Positions 13,196 through 31,568 are shown, counted from the first letter of the stretch. The stretch: 44,658 nucleotides of DNA from Desulfobacterales bacterium (GCA_030066135.1 JASJCD010000001.1:1-44658), one strand, 5' to 3'. Numbers and translations are program-made. The notes: generated by a model not told the origin, from the sequence alone.

Positions 13196-13340
13196 TTCAT
13201 AATGTTAACTTTCAGGCCCCCCGCCGGAACATACCCACTGACAGCCTTGGCCGGCAACTTGACACATGGGGGCCCGATTCTTATTTCCGGATGTGAGCTT
13301 TGCATGCTCCCGTCCAAGGTTAATACATCCCAGGTTTGAA

Positions 13341-14288
13341 ATGATGAAAACATTGTTCCGATCAGCTGCGTACAGACAAATCGCTGTGACGATCCTGGGC
13401 GTATTCGGCATTGGCCTTCTGATCGGTGCGAACGCCGAGGCCCTCAGTCGAGACGAACGCATCGCTCAGGCCCGCCGGGACTGGCTGGTCGGCCTGGCCA
13501 CCGAAAGGCGGATTGCCGAGGATCTGGCCCGCTATAAATCATCGGACCAGGCCTCGCCGGAAGTCGTCCAGCTTTACGAAACCTATCTGGATCGCGTGCG
13601 GCGCCTTACCGCCGAAAAACGCAAGCTTCTGGATGCCCTCCAGGGCGACCGCAGCAAAGGATCGGCGTCGGCCCATTCGGGCGGTGCTAAAACGAAGTCA
13701 CCTTCTCAGCCCGTATACGATCCCCAGATTCCTGAAGATCAGGAACTTGACGAGATCCGGGCCCTGAATGCGGAACTCGACCGCTCGCTGGCGGCCTTCG
13801 ACGACATGCTCCTGCGAGAAATCGAACAGTCCCGCGTCGAATCCGAGCTCAAAATGCAGAAGTTGGCCCGTGAGGCCGCCCGGGCCGCCAGGTCACTGCG
13901 CGACCAAGGCCAGATGGAGGGCAGCGAAGACACCGAGCAGGGACTGAAAGAAGGCCAGAGCTCCACTGGCAGCGGGAATGAAACCGGAAAAATGGAAGGC
14001 GACCGGCAAGGAGAACAACAGCCGGCCGGGGGGGCCGCGGGCGAGCGTGACGCCGAGGCCAGCCAGAAAGAAAGTGGCCAGGGAACCGATCTGGCCCGCT
14101 CAGAGAACAGGCAAACCAAGGGCACCGCCTCCGGGGAAGCGGGGTCACCGGGCGAAGACGATAACATCAACACCCAGGATGACGATATTGTCGCCCGCCA
14201 GTTGCGGGAAGCTGCCGAAAAGGAAACCGATCCCGAGTTGAAAGAAAAGCTGTGGAAAGAGTACCGCGACTACAAAAAGAGTATTTAG
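13341..14288 (+). CDS. Hypothetical signal-anchored/exported protein with charged low-complexity C-terminal half
   Basis: MMKTLFRSAAYRQIAVTILGVFGIGLLIGANAEALSRDERIAQARRDW...; E/G/Q/S-rich region; co-directional with downstream genes. Confidence 0.7.
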   Translation: MMKTLFRSAAYRQIAVTILGVFGIGLLIGANAEALSRDERIAQARRDWLVGLATERRIAEDLARYKSSDQASPEVVQLYETYLDRVRRLTAEKRKLLDALQGDRSKGSASAHSGGAKTKSPSQPVYDPQIPEDQELDEIRALNAELDRSLAAFDDMLLREIEQSRVESELKMQKLAREAARAARSLRDQGQMEGSEDTEQGLKEGQSSTGSGNETGKMEGDRQGEQQPAGGAAGERDAEASQKESGQGTDLARSENRQTKGTASGEAGSPGEDDNINTQDDDIVARQLREAAEKETDPELKEKLWKEYRDYKKSI

Positions 14289-15562
14289 GGTTTCCCGACG
14301 CCAGTCTTACAGCGAGGACCGGTAAGCGCCAAAATCGACGGCGGCGTCCTGTGTTGGTTTCCCTGCTGGGATGTATATTGGTCACGGCTTTAAGCGGCTG
14401 CGCCAGCCACAGTTACAATGCCCGCAATGTGGAGGCCACCCCGATCCAGATCGCCCAGCAGGAGATTCCCGAAGCGGATCTGCTCGACGTGGGGATCGTC
14501 GTTTTTGAAAGCGCCGAGCTTACCGAGGAAGACATCGAGGACAAGGGCACCAACAACGAAATTCGGCAATCCGAGACCCATTTCATTCCCTGCCACCTGC
14601 GCAATACTCTGCAGCGCAGCGCTCAGTGGGGAGCGGTACGCGTCATACCGGAAGAAAGCAGCACCCATGATGTTCTGCTCACCGGCACCATATTGGAATC
14701 CAACGGCCAGGAACTCGTCATTAAAATCAAGGCCACCGATGCCCGCGGCCGCCTCTGGTACGAGGAGACCTATCGTCAGGAAGCCACCGGGGTCTCCTAT
14801 AAAGACAATATCCCGTGGGAGCAGGATGCCTATCAAAACCTTTATAATACGATTGCCAACGATCTGGCCGACCATCGCAAGAAACTCCCGGCCGGTTCAG
14901 TCGACCGGATCCGTTCGATCGCCAAACTGCAATTTGCCCGGGACTTCGCCCCCGATGCCTACGAAGACTACCTCGTCGAAAATGACGATCAGGAAGTGAC
15001 TTTAAACCGCCTGCCGGCGGACGACGATCCCCAGATGGCCCGCCTGATGACCATCCGCGAGCGTGACCACATGTATATCGACACGCTAAATCAATACTAC
15101 GACGGCTTTTATGCCGGAATGTGGCCGGCCTACGAGAATTGGCGCAAGCTGGATCTGACCGAACGGCTGGCCCGGGAGGAAATCGAAAAATCCGCCATGC
15201 TGCGCAAAGCCGGCGGCGCCATGTTGGTGGCCCTGGCCATTTTGCTGGAAGTGACCCAGTCGGGGGCCGGGAATATGCTTCAGGGCGTGATGGCGGTTTC
15301 CGGCGGGCAGGTGTTCATGAGCGGTATCAACCTCTCCAAGCAAGCGGAAATGCACTCGGCGGCCATCGCGGAGCTGAGCGAATCGTTCGGGGCGGATATG
15401 GAACCGGTCAATCTGGAGCTCAAGGGCCAAACCTATGAACTGACCGGTTCAGCCCAAGAGCAATATCGGCAATGGCGGGCGCTCTTGCGTCAGATCTACC
15501 TGCGGGAAACCGGTTTCGAACCTGTCGCGGACGACGGCCCTGACGTGAGCGTGGCCGATTAA
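14252..15562 (+). CDS. Lipoprotein of unknown function (start may be GTG at 14351)
   Basis: Lipobox-like VLVSLLGCILVTALSGCASHSYNARN; 436-aa ORF; later hydrophobic stretch GGAMLVALAILLEV. Confidence 0.75.
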   Translation: MERVPRLQKEYLGFPDASLTARTGKRQNRRRRPVLVSLLGCILVTALSGCASHSYNARNVEATPIQIAQQEIPEADLLDVGIVVFESAELTEEDIEDKGTNNEIRQSETHFIPCHLRNTLQRSAQWGAVRVIPEESSTHDVLLTGTILESNGQELVIKIKATDARGRLWYEETYRQEATGVSYKDNIPWEQDAYQNLYNTIANDLADHRKKLPAGSVDRIRSIAKLQFARDFAPDAYEDYLVENDDQEVTLNRLPADDDPQMARLMTIRERDHMYIDTLNQYYDGFYAGMWPAYENWRKLDLTERLAREEIEKSAMLRKAGGAMLVALAILLEVTQSGAGNMLQGVMAVSGGQVFMSGINLSKQAEMHSAAIAELSESFGADMEPVNLELKGQTYELTGSAQEQYRQWRALLRQIYLRETGFEPVADDGPDVSVAD

Positions 15563-15634: not shown

Positions 15635-18046
15635 ATGCCGCCTCCAATCCCTTCATCCATTCGTCCACAACAGATTCTCGGCGATCGTTTCGAGCTGCTC
15701 GCGCTTCTGGGCCGGGGGGGCATGGGGGAGGTCTGGCTCACACGGGATCTCGAATTGGAGGTCCGCATTGCGCTGAAACTTTTGCATCCGCGTCTGGCCG
15801 CCGCCGAGGGCGCAGTTGCGTTCATGAAAAACGAATGCCGGGCCGCCCGCCGTCTGACCCACCCCAATATCGTACGTGTCTACGATTTCCACCAGCAGGA
15901 CGATCTGGCGTTCATTTCCATGGAGTGGATCGAGGGTCCCACCTTTGATCGCTGGATGCTTTCTGACGGAACCGATCAGTTGCAACCGGTCCGCGTGCTG
16001 GGCACGGTGGCCGATGCCCTGGACCATATCCATGGGCAGGGGCTGGTGCATCGCGATGTCAAGGCCCGCAACATCCTGATGACCCCGCACGGGCAGCCGA
16101 AATTGACCGATTTTGGCATTGTCGGTCTATGGCGTTTCCAGGAGGACATGCTGAACATCCAGACCGGAGGATCCGCCGCGGGCATGAGCCCCCAGCAGCG
16201 CGAAGGCCACCCTCCGGATCCGGCCGACGATATCTATGCTCTGGGGGTACTGCTGCAGGTGACGCTGGCCGGTGGCCCCAACCCGGCTGTCACCCTGGAC
16301 CTCCCCGGGTCTGACGAAACCGTGGTTCCCGAGATAGAGACGCCCGCGCCTTCAGCCGCCTGGAACACTGGCGCACTGCTGCAGTTGGCCGCCCAGATGC
16401 AGGCGTCTTCCCGCCGCGCGCGCCCCGCCAGCATGACCGTTGTCCGGGATACCATCGATACCGCTCTTGCCGCTGCGGCTGAGAGCACCATGCCGCCGAA
16501 TGCCGACGTCCACCCGCTGGTTGACGACCGGACGTCAAGGACTGCCGACCATGTCGCGCCGCAATCGTACACGCCCGGTAAAGACATCTCAGCCCCGCCC
16601 TCACGGCGGCCGCCCCCATACTGGGGACTGGGCCTGGTCATGGCGGCCGTGGGGTTGATGGCCGCCGGTATCTGGCTCATCACCGTACTGGCCCCCAAGC
16701 CGCCGGTCGCCACGACGCCGGCGGCGTCCCCCGGGCCGGCAGCGGTTGCACCGCCGGCACCATCCGCAGGCCCCGACGGCGGAACCCGTCTGACACGCGC
16801 CCCCCAGGAAACGGCGCCGGGACCGGATCTCATTACGGCCGAAAAGAGCATGGCCCTCTGGCTGCGCCTCAACGAACAGCTCAAAGAGGCACATGCGGCA
16901 GACTGGGCGGCGGAACGGCTCGAACAAATTGAAACGCGCGCGCAAGCCGCCGATGCCGCCATGATGGCCCGCGACTATACCGGGGCCGCGGAAACCTATG
17001 GCGCCGCCGTCGCGGAAGGCGAAGCCCTGCTGGCCGAACGCGAGACCCGGTATGCGGCCGCAATGCAGGCCGGCGCGGAGGCCCTGCAGGCGGAGCGGCC
17101 TGCCAAGGCCCGCGATCATTTTTCATGGGCCCTCAGGATAAAGCCGGGCGATGCCGCTGCCAGCCAGGGTCTAGCGGCCGCCGATATACTTACAAAGGTC
17201 ATGGTGCAGATGGACGCCGGGCGCTCCCATGAAAGGGAGGGGCGCTACGAGCTGGCGCTGGCGGACTATGAGGCCGTGCTCGCGATCGACGGCGATTTTA
17301 TCCCGGCCCGGGAAGCCGTGGACCGCCTGCGGGAACAGATCGCCGCAACCCAGTATAATCGTCTGGTGGCCGATGGCCTGAGTGCCTATCACCAGAACCG
17401 GCTGAATGAGGCCCGCGGCCACATCAAGGAGGCCTTGCTCTATCGGCCAGGCGGCCATGAAGCCCGTGAAGCGTTGCGGCAAATCGACACGGCGGCGCGC
17501 AATCAGCGCATTGCACGCCTGCGGCAGAGAGGAAACAACGCCGAAAACAGGGAACAGTGGGATCAGGCCCTGAAAGCCTATGAAAATGCACTCGCCATCG
17601 ATCCGGCCCTCCAATTCGCCCGCGATGGTGCCGTGCGCAGTCGCGAGCGCATCCGCCTCGACAAGCGCCTGCGCTATTATCTCGACAATCCGGAGGTTCT
17701 GGCATCCGATCGTTATCTGCAGGAAGCGCGTCAGCTGCTGACGGCGATCGCGGCGCTGGAACCGCGCGGTCCCCGTCTGTCCGGGGAGATCCAAACCCTG
17801 GAAGCCCGAATCAAGGCCGCCCAGACCATCGTCCCCGTAACGCTGCTTTCGGACGGTCTGACAGAAGTGGCTGTGCTGCGTGTGGCCCGTCTGGGTCGCA
17901 TCACCCGCCGGACCCTTGATCTGCGCCCGGGCATCTATACCGTCGTCGGGGCGCGCAACGGTTACAAAGATGTCCGCCAAACCATCCGTGTTGAAGCGGA
18001 TCAGCAGGCCTTGCAGGTGTCGATCGCATGCAAAGAAAAGATCTGA
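15635..18046 (+). CDS. Transmembrane Ser/Thr protein kinase with TPR-like repeats and PEGA-like C-terminus
   Basis: FELLALLGRGGMGEVWLTRD, LVHRDVKARNIL, KLTDFGIVG; TM WGLGLVMAAVGLMAAGIWLITVL; repeats such as GRYELALADYEAVLAIDGDFIPAREAVDRL. Confidence 0.9.
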   Translation: MPPPIPSSIRPQQILGDRFELLALLGRGGMGEVWLTRDLELEVRIALKLLHPRLAAAEGAVAFMKNECRAARRLTHPNIVRVYDFHQQDDLAFISMEWIEGPTFDRWMLSDGTDQLQPVRVLGTVADALDHIHGQGLVHRDVKARNILMTPHGQPKLTDFGIVGLWRFQEDMLNIQTGGSAAGMSPQQREGHPPDPADDIYALGVLLQVTLAGGPNPAVTLDLPGSDETVVPEIETPAPSAAWNTGALLQLAAQMQASSRRARPASMTVVRDTIDTALAAAAESTMPPNADVHPLVDDRTSRTADHVAPQSYTPGKDISAPPSRRPPPYWGLGLVMAAVGLMAAGIWLITVLAPKPPVATTPAASPGPAAVAPPAPSAGPDGGTRLTRAPQETAPGPDLITAEKSMALWLRLNEQLKEAHAADWAAERLEQIETRAQAADAAMMARDYTGAAETYGAAVAEGEALLAERETRYAAAMQAGAEALQAERPAKARDHFSWALRIKPGDAAASQGLAAADILTKVMVQMDAGRSHEREGRYELALADYEAVLAIDGDFIPAREAVDRLREQIAATQYNRLVADGLSAYHQNRLNEARGHIKEALLYRPGGHEAREALRQIDTAARNQRIARLRQRGNNAENREQWDQALKAYENALAIDPALQFARDGAVRSRERIRLDKRLRYYLDNPEVLASDRYLQEARQLLTAIAALEPRGPRLSGEIQTLEARIKAAQTIVPVTLLSDGLTEVAVLRVARLGRITRRTLDLRPGIYTVVGARNGYKDVRQTIRVEADQQALQVSIACKEKI

Positions 18047-20178
18047 ATAATACCACCCGCCCCGATGAAACCACGCCGCCGGATGTCGTCGGCGCGACGA
18101 CTGTCAAACCGGTCGCTTTCGAACCCCGCGGCGCAAAATCCTCTTCCGGTCAGGATCGACGCGGCCGGCTTTGGCTGGCTGCCCTGGGCCTGCCGGCCGT
18201 TGTATTGGCCGTCCTGGCCTGGTTTGTCTTTACCGCCCGCCAACTCGAGCTCGACATTGTGCCAGCGCCTGAAAAACTAACGATCCAGGGCGGTCTCCTG
18301 ACACCCCGCGTGGGCAAAGCCTACCTGCTGCGACCCGGAAACTATCGCCTGCATGCTGTTCGCGCCGGCTACCACGACCTTGAAACCGACTTCCAGATCG
18401 GTGCGGACAAGCATCAGACCCTCAAGTTCACCATGGAAAAGCTGCCGGGCGTGATTCACCTGACCACGCACCGGGAAGGCCAGCCAGCCGAAGCCGTGAA
18501 CGGCGCCGCTGTCGAAGTCGACGGCGATATTCTCGGCCAGAGCCCGCTGGTGGCGGTCGAGGTGCCCGCGGGCCGCCATACGCTCCGCCTGCAGGCGCCG
18601 CTCTACAAACCGCGGCAGGCGCATATCGATGTGGCGGGAGAGGGCCAGAAGCAGACGTTCGCCTTCGGGCTGGAGCCCAACTGGGCTGATGTCAGTTTCG
18701 AGACCAACCCGCCCGGCGCCTGGATTCAATTGGCTGGCCGCCGTCTGGGTCAGACCCCTCTGACGGCACCCCTGGAAGCCGGCCACCATCAGGTGCAAAT
18801 CCGCCGGGAAGGCTACAAACCGGCCTCCACGCGCATTCATGTGATCGCCGGCCAGGCCCTGGCGGTTCCGCCCCTAGCGCTTGAAAAGGTCGCAGGACGC
18901 CTGTTCGTCACCTCCCGCCCCACGGGGGCCAACGTCACGGTTGGCGACCGTTTCTATGGGCAGACTCCCATCGACCTCGCCCTGCCGGCGGATCAGGAAT
19001 ACGTGGTGCGCATTTCCGAACCAGGCTACAAAACGGCCGCGCACCGCGTGCGGGTGGCCAGCGGTGGCAAAGCCTCTGTGGCGGCCGATCTGGTGCCGCG
19101 CCGCGGGAGGATTCGCTTCAAGGTGTCCCCACCGGAAGCCCGATTGCTGGTAAATGGCCAGCCATACGGCCGGGTGCCGGCGTCGCTGGATCTCCTGGCC
19201 GTCCGCCATCAGATCCAGATCGTCAGGGAAGGCTACCGCGACTACCGCACCCAGATTACCCCCCGCCCAGGTTACACTCTGGAGCTCAATGTCAAACTCA
19301 AGCGCCCCTATGAAACCGACGTCCCCGGCATCATCCAGGCCCCCAACGGCTACCGTCTTAAGCTGATCCAACCGGCGGCGGCAACTTTCCGCATGGGGTC
19401 ATCGCGCCGCGAGCAGGGCCGCCGGGCCAATGAAACCCTGCGTGATGTCAGCCTGCGCCACCCGTTTTACATGGGCCTGAAAGAGGTCACCAACGGCCAG
19501 TTTCGAGAATTTCAGGCGGCCCACGACGCCGGCATCTTCAAAAACTATAGTTTGAACCGCAACGAACAGCCCGCGACCCGGATCACATGGCAGCAGGCCG
19601 CCGCCTTCTGCAACTGGTTAAGCCAGCGGGAGGGGCTGCCCCCGGCCTATGTTTCCCAAAGAGGAGGCGGGTTGAAACCGGCGATCCCCCTGAACCATGG
19701 CTACCGCCTGCCGACCGAGGCCGAATGGGCTTTCTGTGCCCGTGTGGATGCATCCGGAAGTGTGGTCAAATACCCCTGGGGGAACAAATTCCCGCCGAAG
19801 GACCGAACCGCGAACCTGGCCGATCAGTCCGCCCAGACGATCCTGCAGCTGTTTCTGCAAAACTACAAAGACGGGCATCCGGTGGCCGCCCCGCCGGGCA
19901 GTCTGAAGCCTAATCACCTGGGTCTGTTCGATATGGGGGGCAACGTCTCGGAATGGTGCCACGACTATTACATGATCTATCCCTATACCCAAGGCCGGGT
20001 GGTCACCGATCCGACCGGTCCGGCAACCGGACGCCACCACGTCATCCGGGGGGGAAGCTGGAAGCAGGCCTCAATCCAGACCCTGCGCGCCGCCCACCGC
20101 GATTATCAGGAGAAGAAGCGCCTGGATCTGGGATTCCGTATCGGCCGCTATGTCGCGCCAAACAAGGAGACAGACTGA
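18028..20178 (+). CDS. PEGA-repeat protein with C-terminal SUMF1/formylglycine-generating-enzyme-like domain
   Basis: N-terminal TM; repeated PEGA-like units (PPGAWIQLAGRRLGQTPLTAPLEAGHHQVQIRREGYKP; RPTGANVTVGDRFYGQTPIDLALPADQEYVVRISEPGYKT); C-term GYRLPTEAEWAFCAR, GLFDMGGNVSEWCHDYY, HVIRGGSW. Confidence 0.9.
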   Translation: MQRKDLNNTTRPDETTPPDVVGATTVKPVAFEPRGAKSSSGQDRRGRLWLAALGLPAVVLAVLAWFVFTARQLELDIVPAPEKLTIQGGLLTPRVGKAYLLRPGNYRLHAVRAGYHDLETDFQIGADKHQTLKFTMEKLPGVIHLTTHREGQPAEAVNGAAVEVDGDILGQSPLVAVEVPAGRHTLRLQAPLYKPRQAHIDVAGEGQKQTFAFGLEPNWADVSFETNPPGAWIQLAGRRLGQTPLTAPLEAGHHQVQIRREGYKPASTRIHVIAGQALAVPPLALEKVAGRLFVTSRPTGANVTVGDRFYGQTPIDLALPADQEYVVRISEPGYKTAAHRVRVASGGKASVAADLVPRRGRIRFKVSPPEARLLVNGQPYGRVPASLDLLAVRHQIQIVREGYRDYRTQITPRPGYTLELNVKLKRPYETDVPGIIQAPNGYRLKLIQPAAATFRMGSSRREQGRRANETLRDVSLRHPFYMGLKEVTNGQFREFQAAHDAGIFKNYSLNRNEQPATRITWQQAAAFCNWLSQREGLPPAYVSQRGGGLKPAIPLNHGYRLPTEAEWAFCARVDASGSVVKYPWGNKFPPKDRTANLADQSAQTILQLFLQNYKDGHPVAAPPGSLKPNHLGLFDMGGNVSEWCHDYYMIYPYTQGRVVTDPTGPATGRHHVIRGGSWKQASIQTLRAAHRDYQEKKRLDLGFRIGRYVAPNKETD

Positions 20179-20480
20179 TGCCGGCGGCCGCCAGAGGATG
20201 GGGGGTCGGCCTGTTGCTGGTGGTCTGGCTGCTGGCGGCTCATCCGGCCGGGGCTGAGAACGATGCCGCCGTCTCGCCTTCCCCGCCCCCCCGCCAGTCA
20301 GCGGAAAGTAACGAAGACCGTCCGGAAAACGCCGCGTCCGAATCATCTGCGGAGGCACAAGCCCGGCCGGCCGCCAAAGCGCCGGACCGGTCCCCGGCGA
20401 CGCCGCGCAACCGCAAGCCTTTCCAGCCCTCGGAGGAAATCCACGTGGACAAAGCGGTGGATTTCCCGGCGGACATATGA
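20178..20480 (+). CDS. Small secreted protein (100 aa), Pro/Ala-rich, C-terminal FQPSEEIHVDKAVDFPADI
   Basis: TGATG overlap with the upstream stop; signal peptide MPAAARGWGVGLLLVVWLLAAHPAGAEN. Confidence 0.65.
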   Translation: MPAAARGWGVGLLLVVWLLAAHPAGAENDAAVSPSPPPRQSAESNEDRPENAASESSAEAQARPAAKAPDRSPATPRNRKPFQPSEEIHVDKAVDFPADI

Positions 20481-20484
20481 CACT

Positions 20485-20753
20485 AGAAACTATCTCAAAA
20501 TTAAGATTAGGGTTCCTGGACGGCGTGCGACGGCGATAAAGCGGAGCATACACGCAAGTATGTATGCAGGCTCGTAGGGCAGAGACCCTGCGATTCTGAT
20601 CAAAGCCGGCTCACGATGCACCGTTTTTTTGTAGATCAAGATGCTGAATCCCGCATCGCGGGGACTCACCGCCATGAATAAAAACCAGTGAGGAATCCAG
20701 CAAAGCGGAAAACGCTGCCCGGGGCACTTGGATTATTTTTGAGATAGGTTTTT
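20485..20753. mobile_element. MITE-like non-autonomous element or repeat with imperfect terminal inverted repeats
   Basis: Left end AAACTATCTCAAAATTAA (20487-) is inverted relative to right end ATTATTTTTGAGATAGGTTT (-20752); ~270 bp, no plausible ORF, internal hairpin GCATAC...GTATGC. Confidence 0.55.
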
Positions 20754-20809
20754 ATCGGGGGCGTATCCGGCCCCCGGCAACCATCATCAACCCCTTTGCG
20801 GATACGCCG

Positions 20810-21613
20810 ATGAAACACAATCTGCCTGTTTCGTTTGAATTTATCTACCAGTTGTTTGCCCTGATCATCATTGTGATCGCGGTGCACGCCGTCTACGTGG
20901 CCGCCATTCGTCCGGCGGCCGATACCTTCCTGCAGCAGCAGGCCGAACGCGTGGCCAGCGGGCAGCCGGCGGAAACGGAGCAATCGATTTTTGTGATGAT
21001 CCGGGATTATGAGCAGGAGGCCTGCTTTATTCTGATGTTCTGGGCCCTGGCCATCATGGCCTATAAAAGCATCACCACCATCCGCCATCGGCGGCTGCTG
21101 AACGAGGATCTGATCCCCCTGGCCGAGGGGGTCCGCGTGCTGCCCGAAGACACCCTGGCCCTGTCCCGCCGTATCCAGGCCCTGCCTGCCGAACAGCGCC
21201 AATCGCTTCTGCCGCGGGCCCTGCTGGCCGCCCTGCAGCGTTTCAGCTCGACGCGCAACATCCAGGATGTGGCCAATGCCATGCATGCTTACTGCTCGAG
21301 CGAAGGCGAACGCCTGGACAGTGAACTGGCCATGATCCGCTATATCGCCTGGGCCATTCCTTCGGTCGGATTTATCGGCACCGTGCGGGGCATTGGTCAA
21401 GCCCTGGGCCACGCCCACAAGGCCCTTGAGGGCGATATCATGGAGGTTACCCGCAGCCTGGGCGTAGCGTTCAACTCCACGCTGATCGCGCTGCTCATCA
21501 GCATCGTGCTCATGTTTCTGCTCCATCAGCTGCAACTGCTGCAGGAACGCTATATTCTGGATTCGGAAGCTTACTGTGAAGACAAACTGACCCGTCGGCT
21601 GCACACCCGTTAG
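20810..21613 (+). CDS. MotA/TolQ/ExbB-like proton channel family protein
   Basis: 267 aa, three TM segments, ...AMIRYIAWAIPSVGFIGTVRGIGQALGHAHKALEGDIMEVTRSLGVAFNSTLIALLISIVLMFLLH... Confidence 0.85.
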   Translation: MKHNLPVSFEFIYQLFALIIIVIAVHAVYVAAIRPAADTFLQQQAERVASGQPAETEQSIFVMIRDYEQEACFILMFWALAIMAYKSITTIRHRRLLNEDLIPLAEGVRVLPEDTLALSRRIQALPAEQRQSLLPRALLAALQRFSSTRNIQDVANAMHAYCSSEGERLDSELAMIRYIAWAIPSVGFIGTVRGIGQALGHAHKALEGDIMEVTRSLGVAFNSTLIALLISIVLMFLLHQLQLLQERYILDSEAYCEDKLTRRLHTR

Positions 21614-21624
21614 AGGATACGCAG

Positions 21625-23043
21625 GTGAACATCATCGGACTGGAAATACACGACACCGGCATCCTGTGTGCCGGCCCCGAAGGCCGGCTGCACCCCACGG
21701 ACGCGGAGGCCCTGGAGAGTCCGGGATTCGCCCTCGTGCACGGCCAGAATCTACAGCTCGGCATGTCCGCGCTGCACCAGGCCCGGCGGCGTCCCCGGCA
21801 GGTCATTTGCCGTTTCTGGGAAGAGCTCAACACCCAGCCGCTACTGAGCCCGGAGTTCGAGGGCTACAATCATGCCGAGCTGGCATACCGGCACCTGGAA
21901 CAGGTATGGCGCCAGGTTAGCGCCGATGCCGCGGAGGTGGTGCTCACCGTTCCCGACCACTACGAGGACCGTGAACTGGGCCTGCTGCTGGGCATTGCCT
22001 CCGTCCTGGGCCTGCCGATCCGCGGACTGATCTCCCAGGCGCTGGCCTGTACCCCTCCCGAAACCGATCAGGGCACCGACTTCCACGTTGATCTTCATCT
22101 CCACCGTCTGGTGCTTACGGCCGTCGATGGCCGCCCCCGCCCGGAAGTGGTCCGGCATGAAACCATCATCGATCAGGGCCGGGAGGCCGTCCACCGCGAG
22201 TGGGTCAAAATGCTGGCCGATGCCTTCGTGCACCAGACCCGGTTTGATCCGCTCTATGCGGCCGATGCCGAACAGGATCTGCACGACCGCCTGCCGCAAA
22301 TCGCCGATGCGCGGCAGCAGGACCCGATCCATGTCGAAATGCAGGCCGACGGTCGGACCCATCGCATCCAGCTCGATCAGCAGGCCTTTATGGCCCCTTT
22401 GGCCCCCTGGATTGAAAATCTCGGGCACACCATCGGCGACTGGCAGAGAGCGCTTTCCGTGTCGCCGGATGATTCCCGTCTCGTGCTGACCCATCGGGTG
22501 GCCGCGCTGCCGGGGTTCGTGGACACCCTGGAGAATGTTACCGGTTTGAAAGCCCGTCGGCTGTCTGCGGGTGCGGCCGCCGCCAACGCCCTGGCCTACG
22601 CCCAACTATTCTCCAAAGGCAGTACAGCACACGGGGTACCCTACCTGAAGCGCGTTCCCAGGGCGCCGGCGGACACGGCCGCGGTGCGCGCCGCGGCCCC
22701 GGCGGAAGACGAACCTGACCTGCCCACCCACCTGCTCTACCGCGGCCGGGCCTACCCCATCGTGGACGAGCCCCTGGTGGTGGGTCGTGAGCTGCCGGCC
22801 GGTACACGCGGTATTCTTATCCAAGGCCGGCTGGCAGGTGTTTCACGGCATCATTTTTCGGTAATCCGCGAGGATCAGCAGGTCCTGCTGATCGACTCCA
22901 GCAGCTATGGCACCCTCGTGGATGAAGTGCCGGTGATGGACCGCCGCGCCCTGATGGTGGGTCAAATCATACGCATCGGAAAACCGGGGGAAACCCTGCA
23001 GGCCATTGCCTGCCTGTCGCACCATGAAACGACGATCCCTTAA
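21625..23043 (+). CDS. Actin/Hsp70-like ATPase-fold protein with C-terminal FHA domain
   Basis: N-term MNIIGLEIHDTGILCA...AEVVLTVPDHYEDRELGLLLGIASVLGLPIRGLISQALA; C-term YPIVDEPLVVGRELPAGTRGILIQGRLAGVSRHHFSVIREDQQVLLIDSSSYGTLVDEVPV (FHA-like). Confidence 0.75.
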   Translation: MNIIGLEIHDTGILCAGPEGRLHPTDAEALESPGFALVHGQNLQLGMSALHQARRRPRQVICRFWEELNTQPLLSPEFEGYNHAELAYRHLEQVWRQVSADAAEVVLTVPDHYEDRELGLLLGIASVLGLPIRGLISQALACTPPETDQGTDFHVDLHLHRLVLTAVDGRPRPEVVRHETIIDQGREAVHREWVKMLADAFVHQTRFDPLYAADAEQDLHDRLPQIADARQQDPIHVEMQADGRTHRIQLDQQAFMAPLAPWIENLGHTIGDWQRALSVSPDDSRLVLTHRVAALPGFVDTLENVTGLKARRLSAGAAAANALAYAQLFSKGSTAHGVPYLKRVPRAPADTAAVRAAAPAEDEPDLPTHLLYRGRAYPIVDEPLVVGRELPAGTRGILIQGRLAGVSRHHFSVIREDQQVLLIDSSSYGTLVDEVPVMDRRALMVGQIIRIGKPGETLQAIACLSHHETTIP

Positions 23044-24115
23044 TGTATTCAGCCTGTCTTTCATCGACTGCATCTGTTGCGGTCTGGGGGCTGTTATCCT
23101 GCTCTTCGTCATCGTCAATGCCAAAAGCGCCGTACAGCGCGAAAAAGTGACCCGGGATGTCCACAGCGAGGCCACGCGCATTGAACGCGAAGTCCTGGAG
23201 GGCCGCAAGCGGCTGGTGGAGTTGAGGAACGCACTCGAGAAAACCGAGGCGGATATTGCGCGCACGCAAGGGGCCAGCCGCCGTATTCTCAAGCGCCTGG
23301 AAGAACGCCGCACCGAGATCGCGCACTACGACAAGGAGAACCTGGCGGAGAAAGCCCACCTCAACAAACTCAAAGCCGACGTCCGCTCCCTGGAGGAAGA
23401 AGTCAAACGACTCAAGGCCGGCAGTCAGGCCGAAGACGACCGGGGCGACACCATTCGCACTTTTGCCGGCGAGGGCGACCGTCAGTACCTGACCGATCTC
23501 AAGGTGGGCGGCCGCCGTATCTTCATCCTCGTCGACACCTCGGCCAGCATGCTCGACGACACCATCGTCGGCATCATCCGCCGGCGCAACATGCCCGCGG
23601 CGGAAAAAATCAGATCGCCCAAGTGGCGCCAGGCCGCTGCCACAGTAGACTGGATTACGGCCCAGTTGCCGGCCGAGAGCAAGTACCAGATCTACACCTT
23701 CAATGAGAGTGCCCAGCCGCTTGTGCCCGGTACCCGCAACCAGTGGCTGCCGGCCGCCGAGAGCAAGCGCCTGGACGAAGCGGTGAAACGACTCTATGAG
23801 ACCGCCCCGGAGAAGAGCACCAGTCTGGCCAACGCCTTCGACGCCCTCAATCGCCTGACGCCGCCGCCGGACAATATCTTTCTGCTGACCGACGGGCTCC
23901 CCACCATGGGGGCCGGCAAACCCTGGCGCCGCAAGGTCTCCAGCAAAAAGCGCCTGAGCCTGTTCAACGATGCCGTCGAAAAGCTGCCGGCCAAGGTGCC
24001 GGTCAACGTCATCCAGTTCCCCCTGCGGGGGGACCCCATGGCCGCCAGCGCTTTCTGGCGGCTGGCCACCCGCACCCGGGGCAGCTATTTCTGCCCGGCG
24101 GCGGACTGGCCCTGA
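23024..24115 (+). CDS. Membrane-anchored VWA domain protein with TolR/MotB-like N-terminal TM helix
   Basis: MKRRSLNVFSLSFIDCICCGLGAVILLFVIVNAKS; coiled coil; VWA MIDAS FILVDTSASMLDD and LLTDGLPTMGAG; overlaps the upstream gene by 20 bp. Confidence 0.85.
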   Translation: MKRRSLNVFSLSFIDCICCGLGAVILLFVIVNAKSAVQREKVTRDVHSEATRIEREVLEGRKRLVELRNALEKTEADIARTQGASRRILKRLEERRTEIAHYDKENLAEKAHLNKLKADVRSLEEEVKRLKAGSQAEDDRGDTIRTFAGEGDRQYLTDLKVGGRRIFILVDTSASMLDDTIVGIIRRRNMPAAEKIRSPKWRQAAATVDWITAQLPAESKYQIYTFNESAQPLVPGTRNQWLPAAESKRLDEAVKRLYETAPEKSTSLANAFDALNRLTPPPDNIFLLTDGLPTMGAGKPWRRKVSSKKRLSLFNDAVEKLPAKVPVNVIQFPLRGDPMAASAFWRLATRTRGSYFCPAADWP

Positions 24116-24130
24116 AGGGGGCGAAAGCCC

Positions 24131-25159
24131 ATGGCCCGCGAACGACGCCAAATCGAAATTTTCAGCCTGTCCTTTCTGGACTGCATCTGCTGCGCCTTCG
24201 GGGCTATCATTCTTTTGTTTGTCCTGTCCAAATTTTCCGAACCGACGGTCATCGAAAAGGTGCGCACGGACCTGCGGGCCGACATCATCCGGATGGAAGA
24301 AGAACGCCATGAAATCAGAGGGCAGACCGTGCTCCTCGACCGGGAGCTCACCGCCAAACGTGTGGTGCAGTCCCAATCGCGTCAGAAACTGGCCCGCCTT
24401 CAGGGTGACCTCACCGCCATCGAGGGTGAATTCGCCGCTTCACGTGACGATGCCGAGGTCCAGAACATCATCGAGGGTCGCATGGCCCGCGCCCTGCAGG
24501 AGCTCACGGAAGAAATGAAAAAACTCTCCCTGGCGCCGCGCAAAAGGATCGACCGCCGTGTGGGCGGCATCCCCGTGGACAGCGAATACATCATCTTCAT
24601 CATCGACACCTCGGGCAGCATGCAGCGCGCCGCCTGGGTGACGGTCCAGAACAAAATCCGCGAGACCCTCGACATCTACCCCAAGGTCAAGGGGATTCAG
24701 GTCATGAACGATATGGGCGAATACATGTTTCCCCATTACCGGGGAAGATGGATCCCCGACACGTCGCGGTTCCGCAACCGGATCGTCGATACCCTGCGGA
24801 CCTGGTTTCCCTTCAGCAACAGCAGCCCCGTGGAAGGCATCACCGAAGCCATACGAACCTATTACGATCCCGACCTTCGCATCAGCCTCTATGTTTTCGG
24901 GGATGAGTACAGCGGCAAAAACATGCAGGGGGCCATCGAGGCGGTGGACCGGATCAACCGCGCGGACAAACAAGGCCGTCGTCGGGTGCGTATCCACGCG
25001 GTGGGGTTCCCCACCGTACTGGACGATCCGCGGGGCATCACCGGCGTGCGCTTCGCCACCCTGATGCGCGCCCTGTGCGAACGCAACGGCGGCGCCTACG
25101 TGGGCCTGAATCAATCCCACGGGTTGGGCACCGGGCGCGGCATCCGCATTCGTTTCTGA
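24131..25159 (+). CDS. Membrane-anchored VWA domain protein, paralogous to the upstream gene
   Basis: MARERRQIEIFSLSFLDCICCAFGAIILLFVLSKFSEPT; MIDAS YIIFIIDTSGSMQRA. Confidence 0.85.
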   Translation: MARERRQIEIFSLSFLDCICCAFGAIILLFVLSKFSEPTVIEKVRTDLRADIIRMEEERHEIRGQTVLLDRELTAKRVVQSQSRQKLARLQGDLTAIEGEFAASRDDAEVQNIIEGRMARALQELTEEMKKLSLAPRKRIDRRVGGIPVDSEYIIFIIDTSGSMQRAAWVTVQNKIRETLDIYPKVKGIQVMNDMGEYMFPHYRGRWIPDTSRFRNRIVDTLRTWFPFSNSSPVEGITEAIRTYYDPDLRISLYVFGDEYSGKNMQGAIEAVDRINRADKQGRRRVRIHAVGFPTVLDDPRGITGVRFATLMRALCERNGGAYVGLNQSHGLGTGRGIRIRF

Positions 25160-28382: not shown

Positions 28383-28640
28383 TTTATTAATTGAGGTTTT
28401 TATGCCCAGACGTTTCCGGCGACATCTTCGCTGCTGCTCCTACGATTATGCCTATTAATGGCCTGCTGCTCATCTTGGCGCGAGCACGCAGGCCCTTACC
28501 GGTGAACGCCGCACCAGCGGCCCGTCTCTTACCCCATCAATACACACGACCCAAGCGCGTCATGCGGCTTGCCCCCAGACGAATCGGTTGTTAAAGCCGC
28601 TCGATTCTTCACCTCAAACCGGCAGAACCAAGGAGGCCCA

Positions 28641-29654
28641 ATGAAGAAACTGCATTCGATCGTTGCCCTGACGTTAATGGTGTTGATGCTGGCAGCCCTG
28701 GCACCGGCCAGTCACGCCGCCGCCCCGACCATCAAACTGACCTACAGCATCTTTTTCCCACCCTCCCACGGCCAATGCCAGGCAGCCGTCGCCTGGGCCG
28801 AGGCGATCGGGAAGCGCACCAACGGCCGGGTGCAGATCCAGGTCTTTCCGGCCGGCACCCTGACCAAGGCCAAGCAATGCTACGACGGCGTCGTCAACGG
28901 CATCTCCGATATCGGCATGTCGGTTTTTGCTTACACGCGCGGCCGTTTCCCGGTCATGGAAGCCCTGGACCTGCCCCTGGGCTACCCCAGCGGGCTGGTG
29001 GCCACCCGCGCGGCCAATGATTTTTATGCCAAGTTCCAGCCCAAGGAACTGGCCCAGGTCAAACTCCTGTATCTGCATGCTCACGGCCCCGGTCTGCTGC
29101 ACACCAAAAAGCCGGTCAAAGACATGGCCGGCCTGCAGGGCATGAAGATCCGCTCCACCGGTTTGAGTGCCAAGATCGTCGAGAAACTGGGCGGGGTGCC
29201 GGTGGCCATGCCCCAGCCGTCCACATACGAAGCCCTGCAGAAAGGCGTCGTCGAGGGCACCTTCGGGCCCATCGAGGTGCTCAAAGGCTGGAAGCAGGGT
29301 GAGGTGGTCAAATCCACCACCGACTGCCGCGGCGTGGGCTACACGACGGCCATGTTCGTGGTCATGAATCGCAGCAAATGGGAAAAGCTGCCCGCCGATG
29401 TTCAGAAGGTGTTCACCGAGACGAGTCAGGAATGGATCGACGTGCATGGCCGCACCTGGGACAAAAACGATGAAGAGGGCCGGGCCTTTACCCTGAGTCT
29501 CGGCAACCAGGTCATCCCCCTCTCGGATGGGGAGAGCGCCAAATGGAAGGGCGCCGTGCAGCCCATCATTGACAATTACGTCCAGTCGGCTAAAAGCAAG
29601 GGGCTTGCGGGGGACGACTACATCAAAACCCTGAATGAGTTGATCGCCCGCTGA
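28641..29654 (+). CDS. TRAP transporter substrate-binding protein (DctP family)
   Basis: RBS-like AAGGAGG before ATG 28641; signal peptide; ...[48 protein letters not shown]... Confidence 0.94.
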
Positions 29655-29685
29655 AGCAGCAATCAACCCGGCACCGGGAGGAAAA

Positions 29686-30174
29686 GTGATTCAGCGCCTC
29701 GAAAAATGGACCGCACGGGCCGCCGAAGTCTTCAACTGGGTTGCGGCGGCAGCCGTAACAGGCATGATGCTCCTGACCTGTATGGATATCGTGCTGCGCC
29801 TGTTCCGGCGGCCCATCCCCGGCACGTATGAAGTCGTGGGATTCCTGGGAGCGGTTTTCGCGGCCTTCTCACTGGGGTACACGTCTGTCAATCGCGGGCA
29901 TATTGCCGTTGATTTCATCGTCCAGAAATTGCCGGCCCGGGTTCAGACCGTCGTGGACGGCGTAAATGCCGCGGTCTGCGCGGTGCTCTTTGGTCTGCTG
30001 GCCCGCCAGAGCATGCGCTATGCCGCCGATTTGCGATCCTTCGGCGAAGTGTCGATGACCCTGCAGATGCCGGTCTATCCCTTTGTTTACGGTATCGCCG
30101 CGGGCTGCTGGCTGCTGGTGCTGGTGCTGGCTGTGCGGGTGTTGAAGAACCTGGCGGTCACCCTGAAACCTTAA
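29686..30174 (+). CDS. TRAP transporter small permease (DctQ family), GTG start
   Basis: 162 aa, 4 TM, located between DctP and DctM; ...MLLTCMDIVLRLFRRPIPGTYEVVGFLGAVFAAFSLGYTSVNRGHIAVDFI. Confidence 0.92.
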   Translation: MIQRLEKWTARAAEVFNWVAAAAVTGMMLLTCMDIVLRLFRRPIPGTYEVVGFLGAVFAAFSLGYTSVNRGHIAVDFIVQKLPARVQTVVDGVNAAVCAVLFGLLARQSMRYAADLRSFGEVSMTLQMPVYPFVYGIAAGCWLLVLVLAVRVLKNLAVTLKP

Positions 30175-30219
30175 ACCGCAAGCCGCGGATTCAATATCTG
30201 AATCCCGGCCGTTGAACCC

Positions 30220-30244
30220 GGCGCCATCCGATCGGGATGGCGCC
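30220..30244 (+). terminator. Strong hairpin between dctQ and dctM, possible attenuator or stabiliser
   Basis: GGCGCCATCC-GATCG-GGATGGCGCC, 10-bp perfect stem followed by TTTGTTGTGG. Confidence 0.5.
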
Positions 30245-30266
30245 TTTGTTGTGGAAAGAGATTCGC

Positions 30267-31568
30267 ATGTCCCCGACCGCAATCGGCGTGGTGGGTCTGA
30301 TCGCCCTCTTCGTTCTCATCTTCTCGCGCATGCCCGTGGGCTTTGTCATGGCCCTGATCGGCTTTACGGGTTTCAGCACGGTCGTTTCCTGGGATGCCGC
30401 CTTGAGCCTGTTCGCCAAGGATATCTTCGATGTCTTCGGCTCTTATAACCTCACCGTCATCCCCCTGTTCATCCTCATGGGACAGATTTCTTTTCATGCC
30501 GGCATCAGCACACGGCTTTTCGATGTGGCCTACAAGTTCATCGGCCACTGGCCGGGGGGGCTGGCCATCGCCACCATCGGGGCCTGCACCGGTTTTGCGG
30601 CCATCTGCGGCTCCACCAACGCCACGGCCGCCACCATGGCGGCCGTGACCCTGCCGGAAATGCGCAAGTATGACTACCACGATTCCCTGGCCGCCGGCGT
30701 CGTGGCGGCCGGCGGCAGCATGGGGATTCTGGTCCCGCCCAGCGTCATCTTCATCATCTACGGGATCATGACCGAACAATCCATCGGCGAACTCTTCATG
30801 GCCGGCATCATACCGGGGCTGCTCCTGGCGGTGCTCTTCGTCATCGCCATCGTGGTCTGGGTATCCCTGTCCCCGGAGATCGCTCCCCGGGGGCCGCGCA
30901 CCAGCCTGCGGGAACGCCTGGCTTCGCTGGCGGGCCTGATCGAAACCCTGCTGCTCTTCGCCCTCGTCATGGGCGGGCTCTTCCTGGGCTTCTTCACCCC
31001 CACCGAGGCCGGCGCCGTGGGAGCCTTCGGATCGATCCTGATCGCCGTCCTGCGCCGCAACCTTACGGTGCGGGGCTTCATCCAGTCCCTCTTCGAAACC
31101 ACCCGCATCTCCTGCATGATCCTGGTGATCGTGGCCGGTGCCACGGTGTTCGGCCATTTTCTGGCCGTCACCCGGATTCCCTTCGACATCGCCGCCTGGG
31201 TGGCGGGGTTCAACCTGCCGCCCTGGGCCATCATGAGCATGATTATCACGGCCTACCTCGTGGGCGGCTGCGTGATCGACGCCCTGGCCCTGATCATGCT
31301 CACCGTGCCGATCTTCTACCCGGTGGTGACCGCCATGGGCTACAACCCCATCTGGTTCGGTGTGATCATCGTGCTGGTGACCCAGATTGGTGTGATCACC
31401 CCGCCGGTGGGGGTCAACGTCTACGTGGTGAGCGGCGTGGCCCGCGATATCCCCCTGCAGGTGATCTTCAAAGGCGTCGTCCCGCTGTTGATCGCCCTCG
31501 TGGTCGGCACCTTGCTGATGCTGCCTTTTCCCCAGATCGCCCTCTATCTGCCCGGCCTGATGCGGTAG
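30267..31568 (+). CDS. TRAP transporter large permease (DctM family)
   Basis: MSPTAIGVVGLIALFVLIFSRMPVGFVMALIGFTG...GGSMGILVPPSVIFIIYGIMTEQSIGELFMAGIIPGLL... Confidence 0.94.
   Translation: MSPTAIGVVGLIALFVLIFSRMPVGFVMALIGFTGFSTVVSWDAALSLFAKDIFDVFGSYNLTVIPLFILMGQISFHAGISTRLFDVAYKFIGHWPGGLAIATIGACTGFAAICGSTNATAATMAAVTLPEMRKYDYHDSLAAGVVAAGGSMGILVPPSVIFIIYGIMTEQSIGELFMAGIIPGLLLAVLFVIAIVVWVSLSPEIAPRGPRTSLRERLASLAGLIETLLLFALVMGGLFLGFFTPTEAGAVGAFGSILIAVLRRNLTVRGFIQSLFETTRISCMILVIVAGATVFGHFLAVTRIPFDIAAWVAGFNLPPWAIMSMIITAYLVGGCVIDALALIMLTVPIFYPVVTAMGYNPIWFGVIIVLVTQIGVITPPVGVNVYVVSGVARDIPLQVIFKGVVPLLIALVVGTLLMLPFPQIALYLPGLMR

Follow-up and report, generated by a model that had tools for sequence, protein, structure and literature searches.

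Paired VWA-headed proteins as candidate axle subunits of a TolQ-type motor in a Desulfobacterales bacterium and its relatives

Motors of the 5:2 type power swimming and gliding, nutrient uptake, maintenance of the outer membrane and defence against phages. Here we analyzed a 44,658-nt stretch of DNA from a Desulfobacterales bacterium (GCA_030066135.1, JASJCD010000001.1:1-44658; hereafter "the window"), in which two tandem genes encode proteins with a VWA domain, VWA1 and VWA2, downstream of a TolQ-like gene (Table 1). With a probability of about 0.8, VWA1 and VWA2 serve as the axle (B) subunits in a 5:2 motor of the TolQ/ExbB/MotA class that runs on protons or sodium ions. A sequence-only reading of the same DNA had proposed stator B subunits in which a VWA head replaces the usual domain, and this proposal is supported by an invariant Asp, two invariant pore threonines in the partner, conserved linkage to TolQ, and the inventory of motor genes in the genome itself. 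The finding is real and the interpretation very probably right, and the kind of system had already been predicted in 2025 (Williams-Jones et al., 2025, Mol Biol Evol msaf138, Fig. 4c,d; PMC12204202).

VWA1 (363 amino acids, starting at an ATG that creates a 20-nt overlap with the tail of the FHA open reading frame (ORF) upstream) and VWA2 (342 amino acids) share one architecture. Both open with a basic segment (KRR or RERR) followed by FSLSFIDCICCGLGA in VWA1 or FSLSFLDCICCAFGA in VWA2, which places an Asp at residue 15 or 17, and hydropathy delineates a single hydrophobic segment per protein, so that the basic start, FSLSF[IL]D motif and lone transmembrane helix first read from the sequence are all in place. 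The net charge ahead of this helix is mostly positive across homologues (less uniformly for VWA2), which fits an N-in orientation. From the Asp, 156 residues lead to the metal-ion-dependent adhesion site (MIDAS) in VWA1 and 142 to that of VWA2 (DTSAS and DTSGS, matching the DTSxS noted earlier). Pfam VWA_2 matches VWA1 (E = 6e-8) and marginally VWA2 (E = 0.097), for which DxSxS is kept in all 79 homologues covering the site. For VWA1, an AlphaFold2 (AF2) model run on a 57-sequence alignment shows an uninterrupted helix (residues 9-132) that is joined by a low-confidence linker to a VWA fold (165-363) with per-residue confidence (pLDDT) mostly >90, and its best PDB matches in Foldseek are VWA domains. 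At 1.5 Å per residue, the stalk of ~100 residues would be ~15 nm long.

The two heads differ across the family. VWA1 homologues mostly carry DxSxS, with a first Asp that is degenerate in some lineages (ENSGS, RASGS or EGSGG; Opitutia and others, e.g., loci L026 and L027), and VWA2 always keeps this Asp. Metal binding may therefore have come to differ between the two heads.

To survey the family, we used a genome-contig scan, which gave 34 loci, and profile searches of sampled genomes, which found carriers in 8 of 346 genomes of the window's phylum, 32 of 369 Gammaproteobacteria and 18 of 291 Verrucomicrobiota. Among homologues with a complete N-terminus (82 VWA1 and 80 VWA2), the Asp at the start of the single N-in transmembrane helix is invariant (82/82 and 80/80), as are a Cys four residues (D+4) and a Gly seven residues (D+7) downstream (162/162 each), and the helix bears a small-residue GxGA pattern. 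Conservation of this motif is far beyond chance. Since D and D+4 fall on the same helix face, the Cys probably points into the pore a helical turn above the Asp. Cysteines at D+1 (47/82 VWA1, 42/80 VWA2) and D+3 (49/82 and 49/80) are less consistent, and the CICC beside the Asp that the sequence-only reading had singled out as shared is thus found in the window pair but not across homologues, where the D+4 Cys alone is universal; we therefore dropped CICC as a hallmark.

The TolQ-like gene seen two ORFs upstream is the candidate A subunit gene of Table 1, with the FHA gene in between. Its product matches PF01618 at 54.3 bits (gathering cut-off 22.9, E = 1.5e-14), three of its segments exceed the hydropathy cut-off, and the fourth corresponds to a conserved third transmembrane helix (TM3) with a GFIGTV motif. 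Thr191 and Thr224 are present in 82/82 TolQ-like homologues and align with the TolQ pore threonines T145 and T178 (E. coli numbering). Across the 66 eligible loci (those with the two VWA genes and 2.8 kb or more of upstream sequence), which span Desulfobacterota, Gammaproteobacteria and Verrucomicrobiota, a TolQ-like gene lies within the cluster, with no other B gene, in 65 (63 upstream, 2 downstream), and in the exception (L134) it is on another contig of the same genome. Homologues therefore generally retain both the Asp and a TolQ-like partner, as the sequence-only reading needs.

Classical B genes are found elsewhere. A hidden Markov model (HMM) built from 18 ExbD sequences has no match within the loci, and ExbD genes (PF02472) occur outside them in each of the 15 genomes tested. 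The window genome encodes three A subunits: one beside ExbD (contig C252), one beside MotB (contig C19), and that of the window, alone without an adjoining classical B gene, a tally that is no more than suggestive, as the assembly is 80% complete. The A subunit also draws a weak ZorA match from PADLOC (E = 0.0057), which would point to an anti-phage motor of the Zorya type. We rejected this scarcely credible alternative, as ZorA comes without ZorB, ZorC, ZorD or ZorE, PADLOC reports nothing specific, and the B subunits have VWA heads in place of a peptidoglycan-binding domain.

The window locus belongs with a family that has been described as "TPH-vWA" proteins, i.e., vWA proteins tethered by a transmembrane helix that co-occur with tolQ in the absence of tolR/exbD, mostly form heterologous pairs, and have an ExbD/TolR-like transpore helix (TPH) with an Asp (PMC12204202). 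We assign it there by its features (a heterologous vWA gene pair with tolQ, no tolR/exbD, a conserved Asp), and the occurrence in Proteobacteria and Verrucomicrobia is shared as well. The central idea of the sequence-only reading is thus an independent rediscovery from raw sequence, and the published AlphaFold3 (AF3) models of the family place the helices within the pentamer, where threonines encircle the Asp, i.e., inside the pore as that reading had anticipated. The same study reports a different vWA family, with an SHLS motif, of TolA/TonB-like topology (PMC12204202), which raises the question of whether VWA1 and VWA2 could be side transducers whose helices bind outside the TolQ-like ring, a hidden ExbD-like protein being the real axle. 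Such an arrangement is very improbable and was rejected, as neither protein has SHLS or a conserved His in its transmembrane helix, no ExbD is detected in the loci, and the Asp stands in ExbD/TolR register.

How the two helices relate to each other and to known B subunits was assessed by profile comparison. The VWA1 and VWA2 transpore helices show clear homology to one another (HHalign probability 98.5, E = 1.6e-15). In the comparison with ExbD, Asp aligns with Asp, and full column shuffles scored as high in 2/300 and 0/300 cases for the two helices. PF02472 gives no match at E < 0.1 in either protein and none at their positions in whole-genome scans; as our own ExbD HMM does not match either, we rejected filing them as ExbD/TolR, and they would be B subunits in their working though outside PF02472. 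Likewise, neither MotB_plug nor an OmpA-like C-terminal domain is matched in VWA1 or VWA2 by Pfam, and PF13677 in the window genome matches only the MotB on C19.

Broadly, the system shares with ExbB-ExbD/TolQ-TolR the A subunit family, the two pore threonines and the Asp at the start of a single N-in helix, but its B subunits are of two kinds, each with a long helical stalk and a VWA head. With MotA-MotB/PomA-PomB it shares an A subunit of ~4 transmembrane helices without a pore Glu and the Asp in the B helix, but no plug segment or peptidoglycan-binding domain was found and the cluster has no flagellar genes. GldL-GldM with GldK resembles it in its long periplasmic shaft on motor helices and in an FGE-fold protein in the cluster; in the window, however, the shaft is helix plus VWA, the PEGA-FGE protein is anchored in the inner membrane, and the cluster lacks type IX secretion genes. 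AglR-AglQ-AglS (Myxococcus gliding) also combines one A subunit with two B-type proteins, but differs in operon and stalk, and to our knowledge AglQ and AglS have not been described with a VWA head.

The presence of two B-type proteins leaves two ways to build the motor. VWA1 and VWA2 could form two separate homodimeric motors around a common ring protein, as is possible for AglRQ/AglRS, for which the dimer question is still open (PMC9389320), and each helix does carry its own Asp and the full motif. We regard this as unlikely, since the two genes almost invariably occur as a 1:1 tandem alongside a single TolQ-like gene, the Opitutia keep exactly TolQ-VWA1-VWA2 and no other operon gene, and stalk lengths change together. 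The Asp-to-MIDAS length ranges from 132 to 165 residues in VWA1 and from 132 to 148 in VWA2, and the two are correlated over 27 distinct combinations (rho = 0.84; one combination, from a truncated VWA2 in L031, was dropped afterwards). Phylogenetic independent contrasts over 68 loci gave r = 0.78 (permutation p = 0.0002), with the seven top-contributing contrasts all of the same sign and no such correlation for stalk-head or head-head length pairs. Joint lengthening and shortening of the two stalks agrees with a single paired coiled coil, and coupled stalk lengths without coupled heads favour a heterodimeric axle, which lends indirect support to the earlier proposal of two B-type subunits in one motor.

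Several points weigh against a motor of this kind or its heterodimeric form. In the TolQ-like protein, a Val takes the place of the Glu found in TM3 of ExbB/TolQ. Similarity to ExbD is weak in one-to-one comparison (HHalign E = 0.026 and 0.012 for the two helices), and when shuffling was restricted to the transmembrane segment 11 and 8 of 300 shuffles reached the ExbD score. Just 5-7 large changes underlie the stalk coupling, which disappears among small ones; without the top five contrasts the correlation falls to 0.20, so that the coupling reflects a few independent changes in length rather than a smooth trend. Finally, structure predictions made here are of single chains, the in-pore placement coming from the published AF3 models, and we found no experiment on the VWA-pair system in any organism in the literature.

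The data show the sequence anatomy, the conservation, the synteny, the coupled stalk lengths and a predicted monomer fold. Taking these together, we infer the following for the pore heterodimer, ion flow, rotation, MIDAS ligands, regulation, cargo moved and cellular role. Five copies of the TolQ-like protein would assemble into a ring, through whose pore one VWA1 and one VWA2 helix would pass as a heterodimer, with the Asp side chains taking up and releasing the ion beside the Thr191 and Thr224 rings. Each axle helix would run unbroken into its stalk and hold its VWA head far out in the periplasm, where ion flow would turn or pull the heads. The MIDAS sites may grip operon partners (the PEGA-FGE protein, the TolB-N-like lipoprotein, and the proteins with DDDIVARQL and FPxDI tails), thereby passing force to the wall or outer membrane, and the FHA, Hsp70-like and kinase parts could gate the motor from the cytoplasm.

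Table 1. Genes of the candidate motor cluster in the window, with predicted features.
Feature	Coordinates	Strand	Remarks
Exported protein	13266..14288	+	Signal peptide, variable linker, near-invariant C-terminus DDDIVARQLREAAEKETDPELKEKLWKEYRDYKK
Lipoprotein	14252..15562	+	LSGC lipobox, N-terminal alpha/beta domain like LPHT-ring component and TolB-N, long helical hairpin
Ser/Thr kinase + transmembrane helix + TPR/C-terminal periplasmic region	15635..18046	+	
Inner-membrane-anchored periplasmic protein	18028..20178	+	4 PEGA repeats and FGE-sulfatase fold domain
Overlooked small secreted protein	20178..20480	+	100 amino acids, signal peptide, Pro-rich linker, C-terminus FQPSEEIHVDKAVDFPADI*
TolQ/MotA-like A subunit	20810..21613	+	PF01618; ~4 hydrophobic helices; pore Thr191/Thr224
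Cytoplasmic protein	21625..23043	+	Degenerate Hsp70/actin-like N-terminal part, C-terminal FHA; candidate phospho-Thr-dependent regulator
VWA1, candidate B subunit 1	23024..24115	+	N-in transpore helix Asp15/Cys19, ~100-residue periplasmic helical stalk, VWA head, MIDAS DTSAS
VWA2, candidate B subunit 2	24131..25159	+	N-in transpore helix Asp17/Cys21, helical stalk, VWA head, MIDAS DTSGS

The full nine-gene order (exported protein, lipoprotein, TPR protein, PEGA-FGE, small secreted protein, TolQ, FHA, VWA1, VWA2) is found in Desulfobacterota and Gammaproteobacteria, and Verrucomicrobiota mostly keep just TolQ-(FHA)-VWA1-VWA2. We therefore take this reduced set as the core machine, to which the remaining genes can be attached as an output or input module. 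Ahead of its FHA domain, the FHA protein weakly matches Hsp70 (E = 0.0019), and most homologues of the kinase gene product consist of the C-terminal part without a kinase, the fusion being restricted to the window and a few relatives. The AF2 model of the lipoprotein has a predicted template-modelling score (pTM) of 0.80, and over its alpha/beta domain it resembles a chain of the flagellar LPHT ring (E = 2.4e-5) as well as TolB (E from 3e-3 upwards), with low template-modelling scores; a predicted TolB-like partner beside a TolQ-like motor is suggestive. The best NCBIfam match of the PEGA-FGE protein is GldK, below cut-off.

The small secreted protein, encoded between the PEGA-FGE and TolQ-like genes, ends in a conserved tail (FxPSExIxxDxxVxFPxDI-stop). 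An FPxD[IL]-tailed small protein is present in 41 of 50 PEGA-FGE loci vs. 0 of 24 loci without PEGA-FGE, which points to PEGA-FGE as its partner. Other proteins of the loci seldom end in this tail (47 matches among 1512 windows, true ones included). Because the small protein is confined to PEGA-FGE loci, and because in L141 and L142 the tail lies directly at the inner membrane, where heads held out on a 15 nm stalk would be too far away, the tail as a ligand of the VWA MIDAS is a mere possibility.

Further features were noted along the window. Homologues of the exported protein end in DDDIVARQLREAA..., a helix-like, near-invariant C-terminus (DDDIVARQLREAAEKETDPEL..LWxEYRxYK) that follows a variable low-complexity linker, and some have a lipobox. 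The ~330 nt ahead of the TolQ-like gene (20480-20810) hold no obvious ORF and may carry a promoter for the motor genes. Further downstream, 28569-31568 (+) seems, by eye only, to encode a TRAP transporter in full, with its solute-binding subunit and both membrane subunits, small and large.

Outside the pair family, four TolQ-like relatives (L144, L151, L195 and L197) lie near one shaft protein each, with a motif resembling F-[NS]-x-S-x-[LM]-D followed by a transmembrane helix with G-A-F. The head of this sister shaft is a VWA domain in L144 (by Pfam) and L197 (by eye). In L151 (7608-8417, minus strand) and L195 (6193-6885, minus strand), a non-VWA head (DVDLHVxDPxG...) sits on the single transpore-helix protein, beside TolQ-like and FHA/PP2C/kinase genes; it matches no named Pfam family at cut-off, DUF5697 falling just below. 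Differing heads on sister shafts suggest that the transpore helix behaves as a cassette, and the pairing of a TolQ-like protein with one such shaft at each sister locus speaks for the motor reading. Genes around the sister loci encode PP2C, FHA, kinase or protease-like proteins (PP2C and protease by eye).

Together with the kinase, FHA and Hsp70-like parts of the window cluster, these neighbours would also suit a complex for signalling or adhesion under phospho-control, with the TolQ-like protein as a mere scaffold and no motor at work. We consider this improbable, since exactly the ion-path residues (the Asp and two Thr) are conserved across three phyla and the kinase domain is dispensable. 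We hold it somewhat better than an even bet that the axle is an obligate heterodimer that rotates, with a pore Asp and an invariant pore-facing Cys on each subunit, unequal VWA heads, and a transpore-helix-plus-stalk cassette that evolution has fitted with various periplasmic heads under Ser/Thr phospho-control.

No other paper on the VWA-pair family was found in the literature searched, and the text of the 2025 description mentions no kinase, PEGA, YfaP, heterodimer, cysteine or FHA domain, its one "Fha" match being FhaC (PMC12204202). New relative to it are the evidence for a heterodimer, the invariant Cys, the operon partners, the FPxDI protein and the head-swapped sister family. A widespread version of the motor with adhesion-type heads would put ion-driven force in the envelope to a new use. 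If true, a heterodimeric axle would break the two-fold symmetry assumed for 5:2 motors and offer a direct way to test what each Asp contributes to a turn.

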